From contig PCQY01000032.1 in NCBI GenBank assembly GCA_002770755.1, positions 18,344 through 52,890 on the forward strand: a stretch of 34,547 nt of DNA, in the 5' to 3' direction. The notes below the pieces were generated by a model. It saw only the letters and a program-made list of their open reading frames with translations, did not search any database and was not told where the DNA came from. Shown here one piece after another: positions 4,383 through 17,660 of this stretch. A program made the translations under genes and the position numbers. This stretch comes from a candidate division WWE3 bacterium CG23_combo_of_CG06-09_8_20_14_all_40_14 (GTDB lineage: Bacteria; Patescibacteriota; WWE3; CG2-30-40-12). Each line of letters starts with the position of its first letter. Position 1 is the stretch's first letter.

Positions 4383-5637
4383 AAATTCTTTTTCTAAACA
4401 TTACTATTATACCAGCAAAAACGGCGGGAAAGATAATTACAAACCCTACCCACCGAAAAGAATTTTTATTATTTACAACTTCGGAAACGGTTTCATCCAA
4501 AGCTAAATTTTGAGCGCTGGGAACAAATTCACTCACGCCTTCTTTAATTTCAAACGAGTCGGGAATTTTTATATCCGATTTAGCGAAACTTGCGGATAAC
4601 ACCTGTCCAGAGCTTTCATCGTTGGGAAGGACATCCTCCGCATTTAGAACTTCTCCCTCTTCTTTCTCCTCCTCAACTTCTCCGTTAACAATTTCATTTT
4701 CTTCCCCCGGAGTGGGTTCTTGGGTCAGCTTAAAATCTCCAGAATCATCTAATGCGTAGGAGTAACCTGTTTGGCAATCCTCGTAGCTTGTTTCGTCCAC
4801 TACCTCATTATTTGGATTAAGAAGGCGAACGCTGTCCCCGCCAGTATTGTTGAATCTGCTAGAAGAAAAGAAAATAACAAAATACTTTTCCTTTTTAACG
4901 GTTAGACTTTTTCCAATCTTATCCTCATCCAAAGTGTACGGGGACGCGCCACCATCAACCACATCATCTATTTTCCAAGCTGTTAAATCCAAATCTTCTC
5001 CAGTATCGTTGTAAATTTCCACCCACTCTTCCTCATCCTTTTCAGGGCAAGCCATAAACTCCGTAATTTTTACATTGTCCGGGTAATTGACTTCTTCCTC
5101 TTCCACCTCCTCTACTTCCTCCTCATTCCCTTCCTCTTCTTGCTCTATCTGCTTCTCTAAAACCGGACAAGACGGGATAGCAGGGTTATCAGAAAACTTC
5201 CACTCATCACCATTTAACAAAATGGAATATCCTTTTCGTGTGTTTTTATAGTCCAGAGTACAAACAACTAACCCTTCTGCATTCAAAACACGCACACTAT
5301 CCCCACCACTATCATTAAATCCAGAAAATTCGAAATGTCCGCAAGAGCCAACTTCTAAAATTCCCCAAATATCTTTAGGCTTGGAACCCTCTTCAATGTC
5401 ATCTATCTTCCAACTGGTAAGATTTATAGAAGTTGCGCCAAAATTGTAAATATCCACCCACTCTTTTTGCCCTGTTTCTGGGCGAGGCATAAATTCCTTT
5501 ATTCTTATATCTAAAGCACACTTAACATTATCAACTTGCGGACTTGTTTCAGCCAACACATTCACAGGACTTAAGAGAACTCCCAACCACGCGATCGCAA
5601 AGCCATAGAAACATCTACATCCCCATTTACTGAACAT
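4345..5637 (-). CDS. Secreted/anchored protein with two lamin tail domains, acidic linker and C-terminal TM
   Basis: Two repeats: IKEFMPRPETGQKEWVDIYNFGATSINLTSWKIDD and ITEFMACPEKDEEEWVEIYNDTGEDLDLTAWKIDD; EEEGNEEEVEEVEEEEV linker; C-terminal TM then RKRIYGLWK. Start set at the internal ATG MFSKWG (5637) because the track start (5673) lies within the upstream CDS. Confidence 0.82.
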   Translation of the reverse strand: MFSKWGCRCFYGFAIAWLGVLLSPVNVLAETSPQVDNVKCALDIRIKEFMPRPETGQKEWVDIYNFGATSINLTSWKIDDIEEGSKPKDIWGILEVGSCGHFEFSGFNDSGGDSVRVLNAEGLVVCTLDYKNTRKGYSILLNGDEWKFSDNPAIPSCPVLEKQIEQEEEGNEEEVEEVEEEEVNYPDNVKITEFMACPEKDEEEWVEIYNDTGEDLDLTAWKIDDVVDGGASPYTLDEDKIGKSLTVKKEKYFVIFFSSSRFNNTGGDSVRLLNPNNEVVDETSYEDCQTGYSYALDDSGDFKLTQEPTPGEENEIVNGEVEEEKEEGEVLNAEDVLPNDESSGQVLSASFAKSDIKIPDSFEIKEGVSEFVPSAQNLALDETVSEVVNNKNSFRWVGFVIIFPAVFAGIIVMFRKRIYGLWKNFKSENP

Positions 5638-6820
5638 GTAAGAAATAAGACACCGTTTCATCGTCATGGACAATGTATTTTATATTAATCATACTTGAAC
5701 TTCCGCAGGCTTCCCGCGTGGAATAGAGGTCCCCATCTTCCGGCGCTCTTACAACAGAACTTGCGTTTGAAACCATATCAAATCCAGTATGAATTCCTCC
5801 AGAATACTTATATCTCCAAGAATACGGCGTTTTCCCATAATCCTGTGTTAAAATTATGGTATCACTTAAGGGCCATGCCCAGTCACCATCTCCAATTTCT
5901 CTATATTCATCTGCCGTTGCATCATAAACGGTCTTGGATTCCAGATAATCAGAAGGGTCTACCCACTGATTATTTTCTCTAATTTCAAAATGAAGGTGCG
6001 CTCCTGTAGAACACCCCGGATAACCGGAATTTCCCACTACCGCAATAGCATCTCCCTTTTTAACATGCCCTGATAACAACCCTTTTCCAACAGCTGCATC
6101 CAACGCAGCAAACTCCGCCAAAGCTTTTCTTAAAAGCTCCTGATAAGTAGCCTCATCATTTTTCGTATCTGCGAGCAGCTTTTCCTTTTCCCCCTTGCTT
6201 ACCTCTAACTCACCTCTGTATTCCTGCGCGGTGCGTTTTTCCTGCTCTATAGACTTTTTTAAAGCCTCTACCTTACTTTTTTTATCCTCCAGTATAACTT
6301 TTTGACTGGTAAAATTCCGCTTCGTTTCCTTAAACTCTGCCAAAAGTTTGTTATCCTGCTCCTGCGCTACCCTCAAATACTTTAAACGATTAATCACATC
6401 TGAGAGACCCTGAGAATCAATAAACAAATTAAGAGATAGGGCTCTCTCGGATTTGTACCTAACCCTAACCCGCTCTTCCAAAATTCTTTCCTGCTCGCTT
6501 AAAGCTTCGGACACCCTATATATTCTATTCTCCATATTTTCCACATCTTTAGACAATACATTTAATTCTTTTTCCTTTTGCACTATCTTATTTTCAGCAT
6601 CTCTTATTTTTAGTTCCACATAACCTATCCTAATATCCAAATAAGTTATTTCGCCCGTTAAACTTTTGGCTTCGGCTGAAAGCTCTCGCAGTTTCTGCTC
6701 ATACTCTCGTATTTTATCCTGAAGATCCGATTCTTGAGCAAATAACACAGTATGCCTAAAAAGCAAAAACGATGAAAAAATTAAAAGCAAAAAACACGAG
6801 AAAAAATGAAGGGGCCTCAT
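5627..6820 (-). CDS. EnvC/PcsB-like coiled-coil murein hydrolase with M23 (LytM) domain in permuted order
   Basis: Signal peptide, long coiled coil (aa ~30-230), AHLHFEIR (HxH) at aa 274-281, then SGGIHTGFDMV (HxxxD) at aa 341-350, ending SYFLHVQ-stop. Immediately downstream of ftsX. Confidence 0.88.
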   Translation of the reverse strand: MRPLHFFSCFLLLIFSSFLLFRHTVLFAQESDLQDKIREYEQKLRELSAEAKSLTGEITYLDIRIGYVELKIRDAENKIVQKEKELNVLSKDVENMENRIYRVSEALSEQERILEERVRVRYKSERALSLNLFIDSQGLSDVINRLKYLRVAQEQDNKLLAEFKETKRNFTSQKVILEDKKSKVEALKKSIEQEKRTAQEYRGELEVSKGEKEKLLADTKNDEATYQELLRKALAEFAALDAAVGKGLLSGHVKKGDAIAVVGNSGYPGCSTGAHLHFEIRENNQWVDPSDYLESKTVYDATADEYREIGDGDWAWPLSDTIILTQDYGKTPYSWRYKYSGGIHTGFDMVSNASSVVRAPEDGDLYSTREACGSSSMINIKYIVHDDETVSYFLHVQ

Positions 6821-7698
6821 TATATCTTAAGGTATTTTCTTAAAGCAATTATACTGCCAAAAGCTCCCAGCAAAGCTCCGAACACAAGTTCAATTCCCAA
6901 AAGCGCCAGTACCGTAAAAACTGTGAAAGCGGGAATTGGAATGCCCGAAAATACATTATTGAAATACGGGTAAATAAAAGGAAGAATCGCTCCAATAAAG
7001 ACCATTGAAATAAACGCCGAACCCACACCATAGAAAATTCCCTGCGCCAAAAAAGGTCCTCTAATATGCCAATCGGAGGCGCCTATAAGACGCATAACAA
7101 CAATCTCCTCTTTTTTGGAATGAATGGCGGAGCTTATAGTAACCAACACTACCAAAATAGAAATTAACCCTAAAACACCCACCAAGAAAAGACCTGCGTA
7201 TTTAACGGTATCCGCCCATTTTTGGAATGTTGCAATAACATCTTTGTAATAAACTACTTCTTCCACCCCCTCCACTTTCTCAAGCATCCCGGCTAAAATA
7301 GGCAAATCCTTAATGTTCTTCGCCCTCACATCCAAACTTGCGGGAAAAATACTGCTTGAGATAGACTCAAGCAATAACGGCTCGCTTTTGTGCTGACCCA
7401 TATATATTTTTAAGGCTTCCTCTTTTGACACATATACTACTTCTGCCGTCAAATCCGTTTCTTCCAGGCTTTTCTTTGTGCTAATAATACTCTCCTCCGC
7501 CGAAGAATCCTTAAAAAAAGCGGTAACCTGCGCTTTGGATTCCAAATGCCTTAAAACTATGTTTGAAATGTAGGCAGAGATAATAAAAAGGCTTGACACA
7601 AAAAAGGTCAAAGTCATAACAATAACTGATGTGGCTGTGGACCACCCACTTCGTTTTATATTTTTTAATGTTACACCCAGCACTTTCTTAAAATTCAT
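6820..7698 (-). CDS. ftsX: Cell division ABC transporter permease FtsX
   Basis: Four-TM FtsX architecture, IKRSGWSTATSVIVMTLTFFV, Y(V)SKEEAL, KKEEIVVMRLIGAS; next to ftsE. Confidence 0.93.
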   Translation of the reverse strand: MNFKKVLGVTLKNIKRSGWSTATSVIVMTLTFFVSSLFIISAYISNIVLRHLESKAQVTAFFKDSSAEESIISTKKSLEETDLTAEVVYVSKEEALKIYMGQHKSEPLLLESISSSIFPASLDVRAKNIKDLPILAGMLEKVEGVEEVVYYKDVIATFQKWADTVKYAGLFLVGVLGLISILVVLVTISSAIHSKKEEIVVMRLIGASDWHIRGPFLAQGIFYGVGSAFISMVFIGAILPFIYPYFNNVFSGIPIPAFTVFTVLALLGIELVFGALLGAFGSIIALRKYLKI

Positions 7699-8360
7699 AT
7701 CTTTTTCCCGGAAACTAACCTTCCTTTTTCAATTTTAATATCTCGTTTGTTCAAAGAGGAAACCACATCCAAATTGTGGGTTGCCACAACGACTGTAGTC
7801 CCCCACCCATTTATTTTCTCAAGCAGATTTACAATTTCCCAGCCAGTGGCGGGATCAATCATACCGGTTGGCTCATCGGCTAGTAATATTTTGGGTTCGT
7901 GGACTAAAGCTCTAGCTATTGCCACTCTCTGCTTTTCTCCGCCGGATAAAAGGCTCGGAAAAGAATTGATTTTCTCAGAAAGACCCACCAAATTAAGAAC
8001 TTCACCCACCGCATCTTTTATATCTTTATCCCCTCTGCCGACCACTTCTAAAGTTAAAGCCACATTTTCAAAAACCGTGAGGCTTTCTAAAAGCTTAAAA
8101 TCCTGAAAGATAAATCCAATTTTTCGTCTTAAACTCGGCACCTCTTTAGGCTTTATTTTAGTTATTGAATTTTCATCAACAAAAATCTCGCCTAAGGACG
8201 GGGTTTCTTCCCTGATAATAAGCTTTAGCAAAGATGTTTTGCCAGCCCCGCTTGGACCTGTTATAAAAACAAACTCCCCGCCTTTTATGGAAAAATTTAT
8301 ATCTTCTAAAGCAAGGGTTCCATCGGAATATTTTTTTGACACATTATCAAATACAATCAT
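7695..8360 (-). CDS. ftsE: Cell division ATP-binding protein FtsE
   Basis: GPSGAGKTSLLKLI Walker A, LLSGGEKQRVAIARALVHEPKILLADEPTG signature/Walker B, IGFIFQDFKLL. Confidence 0.95.
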   Translation of the reverse strand: MIVFDNVSKKYSDGTLALEDINFSIKGGEFVFITGPSGAGKTSLLKLIIREETPSLGEIFVDENSITKIKPKEVPSLRRKIGFIFQDFKLLESLTVFENVALTLEVVGRGDKDIKDAVGEVLNLVGLSEKINSFPSLLSGGEKQRVAIARALVHEPKILLADEPTGMIDPATGWEIVNLLEKINGWGTTVVVATHNLDVVSSLNKRDIKIEKGRLVSGKKI

Positions 8361-9777: not shown

Positions 9778-11586
9778 ATGCCGAAAATTAAGGATATACC
9801 AAAAATTGATCGCCCAAGAGAAAGGTTTCTTAAAAAAGGGGCAGACGCACTTTCAAAGAGTGATCTTTTGGCGATTCTTTTAGGTAGCGGGATTAGGGGG
9901 AAAAATGTTAGGCAACTTTCGGAGAGTATTATTAAAAAATTCGGTAAAAACTTTTTGAATATAACTGTTGATGATCTTTTAGAAATTTCGGGCATTGGCC
10001 AAGCTAAAGCATTACAAATCGTTTCTGCAATTTCTTTGGTAAAAAGATTCTATGCGGATGAAAAATCAAACGAGATTATTATTAAAAATTCCCAAGATGT
10101 TTTATCTCTTACTTATGACTTAAGGGATAAGAAAAAAGAACATTTGCTTTGTTTGTATCTTAATGCAAGAAATTCCCTACTCAAAAAAGAAATTATCAGC
10201 GTAGGTTTGCTAGATAAAGCATTACTCCATCCAAGAGAAATTTTTTATCCTGCGATAGAATTAAATGCAGCCAGTGTTATTTTGATACACAATCACCCAT
10301 CAGGTGACTCTTCGCCAAGCGAAAAAGATATTGAAGTCGTTGAAAAAATTGTACAAGCGGGCGAAATAATGGGTATTCCCATTATTGATTTCATTATTCT
10401 CTCCGAGAATGATCATTACAGTTTTCACGAAAAACTAAAAAAGCAAAAGGGTGGTTTTGATTATGTTGCAGACGGAATACAGGGAACTCTTTTCGCCTTG
10501 CTTGAAATTGAAAAACCAGCCTACGAGGTAACGACTATACAAAAAATTGACAAACCCTATTTCCACTTTTCAAAAGCTCAAAATAATACCTTCCAATTGC
10601 AGAATAGAAGATATTTGGGCAATAAATATAAACTGCTCGGATTTATTGAAGATATTGTTGCTGAAAAATGCAATGGAATAAAATCATTTTGTGATATTTT
10701 TGCAGGTACTGGTGTTGTCGGAGAAAGATTTAATAAACCAGAAATAAAAATCATTTCTAATGATTTCCTTTTTACAAATTATGTTTGTCTGAAAGCGTTT
10801 CTTGGTACGAGTTCACCTATTCAGAATGTCACAGATAAAATTGATATTCTCAATAGTTTAAAAACTGCCCAAGATAATTATTTTTCAAAATACTTTGGTA
10901 ATACCTATTTTTCACTTGAAAATGCTAGAAAGATTGGGGCAATCCGTGGAGAAATAGAAAGAATTGCCGAAACGGAAGAAGAAAAAAACATTCTCATCTG
11001 TTCCTTAATTTATGCTGTTGATAAGGTTGCAAATACAGTCGGACATTATGACGCTTTTCGTAAAGATTTAGACATGCTACAGCCAGTAAAACTTTTAGCC
11101 CCAAATATTGACCACTTAAATAATGGAAATAACGATATTTACAAAGAAGACGCAAATATCTTGATTAGAAAAATTGTTTGCGATGTTTTATACATAGATC
11201 CGCCCTATAACTCGCGTCAATATTCAGATGCCTATCATTTACTGGAAAATTTAGCTGAATGGAAAAAACCTAATGTTGAAGGAGTGGCAAAAAAAATGGA
11301 TCGCTCTCACATAAAAAGTTCCTACTGTCTTAAAAATGCTACACAGGCATTTGAGGACTTGATTAAAAATGCAAATTGCAAACATATATTATTGTCTTAT
11401 AATAATACTGGGGATTCAAAGGATGGACGGTCCAATGCTAGAATAAACGACAACGATATTTTACGAATATTAAAAAACAAAGGTGAAGTAGAAATTTTCG
11501 AAAGAGATTACAAGGCTTTCACTGCTGGAAAAAGCAATGGCGATGGAAACGCCGAACGAATTTTTTATTGTAATGTAACAAAATAA
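9778..11586 (+). CDS. Fusion: full RadC-like protein (HhH + JAB/MPN) and C-terminal D12-class (Dam-like) DNA adenine methyltransferase
   Basis: RadC part: RERFLKKGADALSKSDLLAILLGSG, LLEISGIGQAKALQIVSA (HhH), VILIHNHPSGDSSPSEKDIE...IDFIIL (JAMM). MTase part: QNRRYLGNKYKLLGFI, FCDIFAGTGVVGERF (motif I), VLYIDPPYNSRQYSDAYHLLEN (DPPY). Confidence 0.9.
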   Translation: MPKIKDIPKIDRPRERFLKKGADALSKSDLLAILLGSGIRGKNVRQLSESIIKKFGKNFLNITVDDLLEISGIGQAKALQIVSAISLVKRFYADEKSNEIIIKNSQDVLSLTYDLRDKKKEHLLCLYLNARNSLLKKEIISVGLLDKALLHPREIFYPAIELNAASVILIHNHPSGDSSPSEKDIEVVEKIVQAGEIMGIPIIDFIILSENDHYSFHEKLKKQKGGFDYVADGIQGTLFALLEIEKPAYEVTTIQKIDKPYFHFSKAQNNTFQLQNRRYLGNKYKLLGFIEDIVAEKCNGIKSFCDIFAGTGVVGERFNKPEIKIISNDFLFTNYVCLKAFLGTSSPIQNVTDKIDILNSLKTAQDNYFSKYFGNTYFSLENARKIGAIRGEIERIAETEEEKNILICSLIYAVDKVANTVGHYDAFRKDLDMLQPVKLLAPNIDHLNNGNNDIYKEDANILIRKIVCDVLYIDPPYNSRQYSDAYHLLENLAEWKKPNVEGVAKKMDRSHIKSSYCLKNATQAFEDLIKNANCKHILLSYNNTGDSKDGRSNARINDNDILRILKNKGEVEIFERDYKAFTAGKSNGDGNAERIFYCNVTK

Positions 11587-14244: not shown

Positions 14245-16332
14245 ATGAAAGCAACCGAAGCAAAATTAGTCGACTTTCTAAAAAAATCACCTCAATTCAT
14301 TATTCCTATTTACCAACGAACATACAGTTGGAACGAAAAGGAGTGTCTTCAGCTGTGGAAAGATATTTTACATACCGGAAGTAATGATAAAATCACCGCG
14401 CATTTTGTTGGATCTATCGTTTATGTAGAAAAGGGGCTTTATTCTGTCTCGAGCCAATCTTCATTACTTGTAATTGATGGACAACAAAGACTTACCACGG
14501 TATCGCTAATAATAGAGGCGCTCGCTCGCGCCCTCGGTGAGAGCGAACCAATCGAGGGATTTTCGGCAAAAAAACTTCGCAATTATTTTCTGCTCAATCC
14601 ACTTGAAGAAGGAGAAAAGAAATACAAACTTATCCTGTCGCAAACTGATAAAATAACATTGACATCACTACTCGATCAAAATTCATACCCAAAAGACTTT
14701 TCCGTGAGAGTGAAAGCTAATTTTGATTTTTTTAGCGAAAAAATTGCCGAAGAAAAAGACAATCTACTGGCGGTCTGCAAAGGGTTGGCGAAACTTATTA
14801 TCGTAGATATTTCTCTTAATCGTGACCAAGATAATCCGCAATTAATATTTGAGAGTCTAAATTCAACGGGTCGTGAATTAAGCCAAGCTGATTTGATTCG
14901 AAATTTTATACTTATGGGACTAGAACAGGAACTCCAGTCCAAACTGTATGATCAATATTGGCGACCAATGGAAATAGATTTTGGCCAAGAGGGTTATGCT
15001 GTTTATTTTGACGGCTTTATGAGGCACTATCTCACAGTGAAAACTGGCGTAATTCCGAAAGAACATGAAGTGTATGAAGCGTTTAAGCAATATGCACACT
15101 CACCAGAAATATCCAGTATCGGAGCACTTGTTTCTGATATTAGAACTTTCGCCGGGCATTACTGCGCTATGGCACTTGGCACAGAAACTAATCAGGAACT
15201 TAAAATAGCGTTTCATGACCTCCGAGAATTAAAAGTTGATGTTGCATTTCCTTTTTTATTAGAAATTTACAATGACTATAAAAAAGAGCTTTTATCTACC
15301 GATGAATTATTAAAAATTGTACGACTTATAGAAAACTATGTTTTTCGACGCGCTATATGCGGAATTCCAACTAACTCAATGAATAAAACTTTTGGGAATT
15401 TTTCTCGCAACTTAAGAAAGGACAGATATTTAGAGAGTGTTCAGGCAATTTTTATGCTTCTCCCATCTTATCGCCGTTTTCCTGATGATGAAGAATTTAA
15501 ACGAGAAATCAAGGTTAAGGATGTCTATAATTTTCGTAGCCGAAGTTATTGGTTGCGTCGATTAGAAAATTACGACAGAAAAGAGCGTGTCCCTGTGGAC
15601 GAATACACGATTGAGCATATCATGCCCCAGAATGAGAATTTATCTGCAACATGGAAAACAGCACTAGGTTCTGAATGGGAACGCATTCAAAAAACATATC
15701 TTCATACATTGGGCAATCTTACTTTAACGGGTTACAATTCAGAATATAGCGACAGGCCGTTTATTGAAAAGCGAAACATGGAAGGCGGCTTTTCAGAAAG
15801 CCCGCTAAAACTAAATAAGTCTATTGCCAATAAAGACACATGGACAGAACAAGATATATTAGAACGCGCCGAGACTCTATCGGTACAAGCGATTAATGTT
15901 TGGTTTGCACCAAAAATAGAAAATAGTGTATTAGAGACTTATAAATCTAAAACGGAAGTGACTGAATATAGCATTGAAGATCATCCATATCTTGCATCTG
16001 AACCAATGCAAAGTGTATTTAATGAATTTCGTAAGCAAGTATTAGCACTCGATCCATGCGTAACTGAAACAATTTTGAAATTATATGTTGCATATAAGGC
16101 GGAAACTAATTTTGTCGATATTGTACCGCAAGCAAAAAGACTACGCCTTTCATTAAATGTAACATTTGCAGAAATCAATGACCCAAAAGGCTTGTGCAAA
16201 GATGTTTCAGCACTTGGACGCTGGGGCAATAGCAATGTTGAAGTTGGTCTCTCGAAAATTGAAGAAATCCCTTATGTTATGAGTTTGGTACGCCAAGCAT
16301 TTGAAAAGCAAATGGGGCAGGAAGTAGATTAA
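14245..16332 (+). CDS. GmrSD-like protein: DUF262 + DUF1524 (HNH) + DUF5655-like C-terminus; possible type IV restriction enzyme
   Basis: FIIPIYQRTYSWNEKE, LLVIDGQQRLTTVSLI (DUF262); YTIEHIMPQN...LHTLGNLTLTGYNSEYSDRPF (DUF1524); YLASEPMQSVFNEFRKQVLALDPCVTE... C-terminal module. Confidence 0.87.
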   Translation: MKATEAKLVDFLKKSPQFIIPIYQRTYSWNEKECLQLWKDILHTGSNDKITAHFVGSIVYVEKGLYSVSSQSSLLVIDGQQRLTTVSLIIEALARALGESEPIEGFSAKKLRNYFLLNPLEEGEKKYKLILSQTDKITLTSLLDQNSYPKDFSVRVKANFDFFSEKIAEEKDNLLAVCKGLAKLIIVDISLNRDQDNPQLIFESLNSTGRELSQADLIRNFILMGLEQELQSKLYDQYWRPMEIDFGQEGYAVYFDGFMRHYLTVKTGVIPKEHEVYEAFKQYAHSPEISSIGALVSDIRTFAGHYCAMALGTETNQELKIAFHDLRELKVDVAFPFLLEIYNDYKKELLSTDELLKIVRLIENYVFRRAICGIPTNSMNKTFGNFSRNLRKDRYLESVQAIFMLLPSYRRFPDDEEFKREIKVKDVYNFRSRSYWLRRLENYDRKERVPVDEYTIEHIMPQNENLSATWKTALGSEWERIQKTYLHTLGNLTLTGYNSEYSDRPFIEKRNMEGGFSESPLKLNKSIANKDTWTEQDILERAETLSVQAINVWFAPKIENSVLETYKSKTEVTEYSIEDHPYLASEPMQSVFNEFRKQVLALDPCVTETILKLYVAYKAETNFVDIVPQAKRLRLSLNVTFAEINDPKGLCKDVSALGRWGNSNVEVGLSKIEEIPYVMSLVRQAFEKQMGQEVD

Positions 16333-16613: not shown

Positions 16614-16650
16614 TTAACCCATTTGGGTTTAACCAAAATGGGTTAAACCC
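16614..16650. terminator. Two overlapping, mutually exclusive hairpins abutting the prfB stop codon
   Basis: TTAACCCATTT (16614-16624) pairs with AAATGGGTTAA (16636-16646); alternatively GGGTTTAACC (16625-16634) pairs with GGTTAAACCC (16641-16650). No T-run, so the terminator role is inferred. Confidence 0.45.
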
Positions 16651-17660
16651 TATTTCAGCTGGCGGATCTCGGCTTCAATGAAGTCGTCTAGTTCCCCATC
16701 CAAAACAGCCGCGGGGTTGGCGCTTTCCACTTCCGTTCTTAAATCTTTAACCATTTTATACGGGTGCAGTACATAAGAACGAATTTGATTCCCCCACCCA
16801 GCGGTTTTGTGCACTCCCTTAGCTTTCAATTTCTCCGCTTGAATTTTTTCCTCCTCTATGGCATATAATTTGCTTTTCAAAAGTTTTAGGGCAATTTCCC
16901 TATTTTTCCCCTGAAACCGCTCGGTTTGACACTCTACCACAATTCCGCTTGGAATATGCTTAAGCCTTACAGCCGTAGAAACTTTATTTACATTCTGCCC
17001 CCCCGCCCCGCTTGAGCGGGAAGCGGTAAATTCAATATCCTTCGGTTTTACCTCTATATCTATATCACTGGAAATCTCCGGCACAACTTCAACTAAGGCA
17101 AATGATGTCTGCCTTAAATTGTCGGCATTAAAAGGGCTCTGTCTAACAAGCCTATGCACTCCAGCCTCATACTTCAAATACCCGTAGCTAAAACCGCCAA
17201 GAATATGCATAGTTGAAGATTTTATGCCCGTTTCATCCCCCACTGTTCTATCAATTTCATATACTTTCCAATTTTTTCTTTCACAAAACCGCTTATACAT
17301 CCGAATAAGCATACTCGCCCAGTCGCAGGCTTCCGTTCCCCCCTGCCCGGCATGAATTGACAAAAAACAATTTCCAAAATCGTATCTTTCGGATAAAAAA
17401 GTTTTTACCTCCAAAGCTTTAAGTTTATCCTCAAGATTTTTAATGTCTTTTTCGCTATACAAAAGCTCAACAAACTCCACTTCTTCAATATCCTTTTTTA
17501 AATCCCCTAAAAGTTTAGATTTTTTTATACCTTCTTCCCTATTCCCCCAAAAAGCGGAGCTTTCCATTTCTTTTTGAATGGCTTTTACCTGCTCTTTTTT
17601 ATCGTCAATTTCTAAAACCTTCTTTACAGAAGCTATTCGCTCCTCCAATGTGTTTTCCAT
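16650..17660 (-). CDS. prfB: Peptide chain release factor 2
   Basis: [35 protein letters not shown] (SPF), [21 protein letters not shown] (GGQ). Confidence 0.93.

Follow-up and report, generated by a model that had tools for sequence, protein, structure and literature searches.

RadC is widespread and is often encoded near defence genes, and no agreed function has been assigned to it. What does it do when it is covalently joined to the methyltransferase of a restriction-modification (R-M) system? This question is raised by a stretch of 34,547 nucleotides (hereafter, the window) from a candidate division WWE3 bacterium, in which a single open reading frame (ORF) without internal stops encodes a protein of 602 amino acids (aa) consisting of RadC, a linker, and a D12-class adenine methyltransferase. 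We found that the RadC of such fusions forms one lineage that has repeatedly moved between R-M systems, and that the linker behind it carries an invariant peptide that may bind the replicative sliding clamp.

Domain structure of the fusion protein

All the protein and family names used here are homology-based. The RadC part of the protein contained an HhH region, in which SGIGQAKAL was readable, and a JAB domain with the complete HxH-x7-S-xx-D metal site (HNHPSGDSSPSEKD), as in the RadC family; its match in the PDB was 2qlc, a RadC homologue. It also exceeded the RadC equivalog cut-off of NCBIfam (PRK00024/TIGR00608 family; 216.2 bits versus 180). In the window genome, a metagenome-assembled genome (MAG) of 0.64 Mb, the fusion was the only copy of RadC. 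The C-terminal part matched MethyltransfD12 (PF02086, aa 279-536) with 112.9 bits (cut-off 22) and missed the Dam family profile TIGR00571 (24.4 bits versus 114.85). The label "Dam-like" in the first-pass annotation therefore holds loosely, for the D12 class, and the enzyme is other than a TIGR00571 Dam. Pfam and NCBIfam profiles and the coordinates confirmed that annotation in describing a complete RadC and a complete D12 methyltransferase in one ORF upstream of an endonuclease and a second methyltransferase. The order of the modules also stood; the linker of some 50 aa that lies between them as a separate segment had gone unremarked.

The AlphaFold model of the full chain was weak (mean predicted local distance difference test [pLDDT] score of 56), and residues 224-283 scored below 50. 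In the linker region upstream of the catalytic domain, TTG was the only start-type codon in frame, at 241, 274, and 280; a separate RadC-free product is therefore unlikely, and separate translation of the D12 domain from an internal start was rejected.

Recurrence of the fusion

The architecture was sought in other genomes, as the first-pass annotation had advised, and it recurred. With that of the window counted, separate assemblies from Patescibacteria, Nitrospirota, Atribacterota, and Desulfobacteraceae yielded 19 fusions that had neither a frameshift nor an internal stop; this number includes L089, which starts at a contig edge, and the truncated L033, L034, and L035 are additional to it. 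A scan of genome contigs yielded full-length relatives with 58-84% identity, the MAGs being labelled Uhrbacteria, Nomurabacteria, Saccharibacteria, Magasanikbacteria, Moraniibacteriota, Jacksonbacteria, Atribacteria, Nitrospirae, and Desulfobacteraceae; some of the contigs from outside the window's phylum may be misassigned by MAG binning. Searches within the window's phylum, over 380 and 384 genomes, gave further loci (L042/L090, L043/L091, and L085 to L089). The window comes from a MAG of 40 contigs, which might have favoured a chimera of assembly or gene calling. This explanation is refuted, since fusions free of frameshifts and internal stops exist in 18 other assemblies, and we regard a chimera as excluded for practical purposes.

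The fusion partner was a methyltransferase in every system found, and at least five kinds of methyltransferase were joined to RadC, namely two D12 groups and three C5-cytosine enzymes (HpaII-type, NgoFVII-type, and one undefined). The RadC-linker-D12 architecture of the window was shared by L022-L024, L026-L032, L037, L042, L043, and L085. In D12 group 1 (the window, L022-L024, L042, and L043; we ourselves labelled the groups in the D12 tree), the fusion is followed by an AlwI-family endonuclease and then a CcrM-like methyltransferase. Group 2 (L026-L032, L037, and L085) comprises the fusion, a second D12 methyltransferase, and an AlwI-family endonuclease that is approximately 25% identical to that of the window, the two representing different AlwI subfamilies. 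Among the C5 fusions, RadC and the linker precede a methyltransferase adjoining an HpaII endonuclease in L086 and L088, and another C5 methyltransferase adjoining an NgoFVII-type endonuclease in L087; in L089, RadC precedes a third C5 methyltransferase, and the adjoining ORF had a weak restriction-enzyme match only. Furthermore, AlwI-family systems without RadC exist, for example on plasmids of Enterococcus, Staphylococcus, and Lactococcus. The tie between RadC and AlwI-like endonucleases expected in the first-pass annotation is thus unspecific, and a specific link was rejected because the same RadC clade occurs on C5 partners beside HpaII- and NgoFVII-type endonucleases.

Several variants of these operons were also observed. 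Genes for Vsr mismatch endonucleases follow two of the RadC-C5 systems (L087:7536-7946 and L088:4083-4493). In L033, L034, L035, and L039, Bro-N, Schlafen AlbA, and NgoFVII-like PLD endonuclease genes stand in place of some portions of the RadC-D12-AlwI operon, and the D12 ORF is broken at the same motif I (approximately residues 314-319) in L034 and L035, which belong to different D12 groups. An AlwI-type operon without RadC encodes a D12-D12 double methyltransferase with a helix-turn-helix (HTH)-like N-terminus (L045:577-2718).

Exchange of the RadC module

In a tree of 49 RadC sequences, the 21 fused ones formed one clade (100/100) apart from the 28 stand-alone ones. Within this clade the methyltransferase types were intermixed, with seven partner changes, the minimum being four, and approximately unbiased (AU) tests rejected a single RadC clade both for D12 group 1 (p = 4.4e-5) and for group 2 (p = 4.1e-4). 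The window and group 2 proteins were 80-94% identical in RadC and 43-45% identical in the D12 domain. The corresponding values for RadC and methyltransferase were 87% and 43% between L024 and L031, and 85% and 32% between L088 and L089; L087 and L042 shared 72% identity in RadC, and their methyltransferases differ in chemistry and have no real similarity. The RadC of the fusions is thus a lineage of single origin. Because the identities of the two parts mismatch and the AU tests reject co-inheritance of RadC with either D12 group, we regard it as a module that has passed repeatedly from one R-M system to another.

The ratio of nonsynonymous to synonymous substitution rates (dN/dS) in RadC was 0.02-0.10 for the pairs with finite dS, indicating purifying selection. 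The JAMM motif was kept across all full-length fusions; in L085, T replaces S in HPSG and the ligands are intact. These values, the retained JAMM motif, and the occurrence in many assemblies strongly support selection on the link between RadC and the methyltransferase.

A conserved QxxLF peptide in the linker

Among approximately 50 otherwise variable linker residues, Y229, G233, Q235, L238, F239, and Y249 were invariant in both D12 and C5 fusions. Three of them constitute the peptide QxxLF, which was found in all 15 RadC linkers examined, again in fusions of both kinds. The beta-clamp-binding motif has been published as QxxL(x)F (PMC5371812), and the fusion linkers carry a conserved peptide of this form outside the folded core. 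In stand-alone RadCs, only a few residues follow the JAB domain. None of approximately 27 such proteins compared had the strict QxxLF, and three of them ended in a looser Q..L[IL] (QSGLI, QKGLI, and QKNLL). DnaN, the sliding clamp, was present in 11 of 11 host genomes checked. The DnaE of two genomes of the same class carries QLGMF; the DinB C-terminal domain and the DnaE finger domain were undetected in the window genome.

The motif also occurs in some relatives of the group without RadC, namely L092 (QAPLF) and L094 (QGALF), and an HTH-D12 protein of an Enterococcus plasmid carries QLELF. The relatives do not support QxxLF as a general trait of D12 N-termini, several of them being without it. 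The L093 fusion (4892-6586), which belongs to an AlwI-type R-M operon, consists of LexA (DNA-binding domain and S24 peptidase), a QLPLF linker, and a D12 methyltransferase. In L094, a gene for a JAB-only RadC (4404-4886, minus strand) is found next to the RadC-free methyltransferase, in divergent orientation.

Proposed role and alternative explanations

We propose that the fusion is a type IIS modification enzyme with a RadC-QxxLF accessory module, which, when docked on the clamp, would modify fresh DNA before the endonuclease cuts; our confidence in this proposal falls somewhat short of even. In such an enzyme, the module would comprise RadC (HhH and JAB) and then a flexible linker with the QxxLF peptide, and the peptide would dock on DnaN. 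The HhH/JAB part may engage nascent, gapped, or broken DNA at the clamp, the methyltransferase would re-modify freshly made DNA ahead of cutting by the co-encoded endonuclease, and the JAB domain may process or clear a DNA end or a bound protein. Nuclease activity or nucleic-acid processing has been proposed for the combination of HhH and JAB from its context (PMC5512222, PMC3482391). The suggestion in the first-pass annotation that RadC acts at newly replicated or branched DNA would fit the clamp-type peptide as read from the sequence, and its other suggestion, that RadC controls methyltransferase or endonuclease activity, received no support from any result here. More tentatively, a horizontally shuffled RadC-clamp module could be the bacterial counterpart of PCNA-tethered maintenance methylation. 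Type II R-M systems unrelated in specificity and chemistry would have acquired it repeatedly as a means of linking their protective methylation with replication or repair, and the long-missing function of RadC might be to act at clamp-marked nascent DNA.

Several points weigh against clamp docking by a RadC module. The RadC family has no settled activity (PMC5512222), and the AlphaFold model of the fusion is weak. Related D12 enzymes with other N-terminal extensions (L044, L045, L064, L118, and L119) are without QxxLF. The motif is short and arises in 0.1-5% of shuffles of single linkers, and the fused linkers share ancestry; for these two reasons, the main argument is the invariance of QxxLF rather than its occurrence.

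Other functions of the module were weighed on the same evidence. RadC might be a repair or nuclease add-on for breaks or nicks arising when the system cuts its own chromosome, the covalent link merely ensuring co-delivery. The processing role proposed for HhH and JAB would suit such an add-on, as would the fusion of LexA, another damage-response domain, to a related D12 enzyme. However, the constant choice of a methyltransferase as the fusion partner suggests targeted modification over loose co-delivery, RadC is not known to have nuclease activity, and the invariant QxxLF would be left unexplained, so that we consider this role unlikely. It is rather improbable that the JAB domain is a regulatory peptidase that cleaves the fusion or the partner endonuclease and thereby sets the balance of methyltransferase to endonuclease, for example on establishment in a new host. 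The JAMM ligands are intact in every full-length fusion and the JAB proteins characterised so far are peptidases (PMC5512222), but RadC-type JABs have been argued to have no groove for a ubiquitin tail (PMC5512222). Moreover, the partner endonucleases (AlwI, HpaII, and NgoFVII types) are wholly different in sequence, and a shared endonuclease substrate is therefore unlikely.

The swapping of RadC among methyltransferases, and the replacement of downstream parts by other cassettes in L033, L034, L035, and L039, would also be expected if RadC were mainly an exchange handle, that is, a shared 5' module for replacement among R-M cassettes by homologous recombination, with little biochemical role. 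A handle, however, need not stay in frame, and the low dN/dS, the intact JAMM motif, and the invariance of QxxLF across methyltransferase chemistries point to a function; we therefore give a mere handle quite a low probability.

The proposed clamp-docked enzyme bears on how R-M systems shield newly replicated DNA from their own nuclease, a question that tethering of the methyltransferase to the clamp would answer simply. A RadC clade whose intact members are all in-frame fusions with chemically different R-M methyltransferases provides a concrete and testable context for RadC, and the shared RadC-plus-QxxLF piece gives it a role that can be tested, the protection of newly synthesised DNA. The fusion offers a readout for the loss of RadC, JAMM, or QxxLF in methylation, its timing, and self-restriction.

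Operon and genomic neighbourhood

The features of the window system are listed in Table 1. As in type IIS systems of the AlwI family, the operon contains an AlwI-family endonuclease beside methyltransferases. The two methyltransferases are of different classes (D12 and CcrM-like beta), and the endonuclease and the second methyltransferase start 2 bp and 3 bp, respectively, after the preceding stop codons.

Table 1 Features of the RadC fusion operon and the adjoining defence gene in the window.
Feature	Position	Strand	Basis
RadC-linker-D12 adenine methyltransferase fusion, 602 aa	9778..11586	+	Pfam and NCBIfam profiles; other fusions alike
UPF0758_N/HhH part of RadC, aa 4-78	9787..10011	+	PF20582, 79.6 bits (cut-off 27.1)
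RadC JAB domain, aa 102-219	10081..10434	+	PF04002, 128.7 bits (cut-off 22.1); PDB 2qlc, E 1.1e-26
JAMM metal-site motif, H171xH173-x7-S181-xx-D184	10288..10329	+	Invariant in the fusion alignment
Linker, aa 223-271, predicted flexible	10444..10590	+	Lowest pLDDT of the AlphaFold model, which is weak overall
QGTLF, aa 235-239, putative beta-clamp-binding motif QxxLF	10480..10494	+	Q235, L238, and F239 invariant in 16 fusions
D12-class N6-adenine methyltransferase domain (FAGTGVVG, DPPYNSRQY)	10591..11583	+	PF02086; PADLOC MTase_II, 376.9 bits
AlwI/BspD6I-family type IIS endonuclease, 605 aa	11589..13406	+	RE_AlwI PF09491, 270 bits; PDB 2ewf (N.BspD6I), E 1.3e-36; PADLOC, 440 bits
Second methyltransferase, CcrM-like beta class, 258 aa	13410..14186	+	N6_N4_Mtase PF01555, 220 bits; PDB 6pbd (CcrM), E 1.2e-61
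GmrSD-type type IV restriction protein, neighbouring defence gene outside the module	14245..16332	+	PF03235, PF07510, and PF18899

The neighbours of the system are the chromosomal genes ftsE, ftsX, and prfB, and the R-M/GmrSD island sits between ftsE (7695-8360) and prfB (16650-17660). In L090 (8966-11685), from another class, the RadC-D12 operon also adjoins ftsX-ftsE-prfB, as judged from the ORFs there, and the ftsE/prfB region is a possible common insertion site for both operons. Polyvalent proteins of conjugative elements would be encoded on a phage or conjugative element; in comparison, the phage and plasmid collections contained no fusion that covered 80% of the query, and scans of viral contigs, made once with the D12 part and once with the RadC alignment as query, found none either.

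In the 0.53 Mb of the window genome sampled, GAGTC, the site suggested by the similarity to N.BspD6I and CcrM, was not avoided, and GGATC was only mildly avoided in a genome where many palindromes are avoided. Palindrome avoidance was strong for ACGT, GATC, TCGA, and GGCC (observed/expected ratios of 0.10, 0.31, 0.38, and 0.41, respectively), and CCWGG- and GCWGC-type words were likewise avoided. This pattern suggests long exposure to many R-M specificities.

Comparison with known systems

In the literature searched, which excluded subscription papers and REBASE, we came across no account of an R-M methyltransferase with a fused RadC. The window system resembles type IIS R-M systems of the AlwI/BspD6I type in its endonuclease, which matches RE_AlwI and N.BspD6I, and in its two predicted adenine methyltransferases, which asymmetric sites usually need (PMC12898733). 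It differs in the RadC and QxxLF linker on the first methyltransferase, whereas the plasmid AlwI-family systems examined have a short, an HTH, or no extension. In the MhoVII system of Mycoplasma hominis, a similar pair of beta-class and D12 adenine methyltransferases modifies the two strands of an asymmetric site, but the two are fused to each other and no RadC is mentioned (PMC12898733).

The window RadC agrees with the RadC/UPF0758 family in its equivalog score, HhH region, and JAB domain with JAMM motif. Unlike the compared stand-alone members, which end soon after JAB without the strict QxxLF, the fused RadCs form a separate clade and carry a C-terminal methyltransferase. RadC serves as a module in multidomain conflict proteins too, whereas in the fusions described here it is joined to type II R-M methyltransferases within R-M operons.

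Among bacteria, M.EcoGIX and M.BceJIII, which work with DNA polymerase I, set a precedent for the coupling of modification to replication proteins (PMC7736820); these are single-strand-specific plasmid enzymes with a polymerase partner and, unlike the window fusion, have no RadC module. If QxxLF works as a clamp-binding peptide, the fusion would be comparable, by analogy and with no homology claimed, to eukaryotic Dnmt1, a maintenance methyltransferase tethered to the sliding clamp PCNA through a PCNA-binding motif (PMC9690074).
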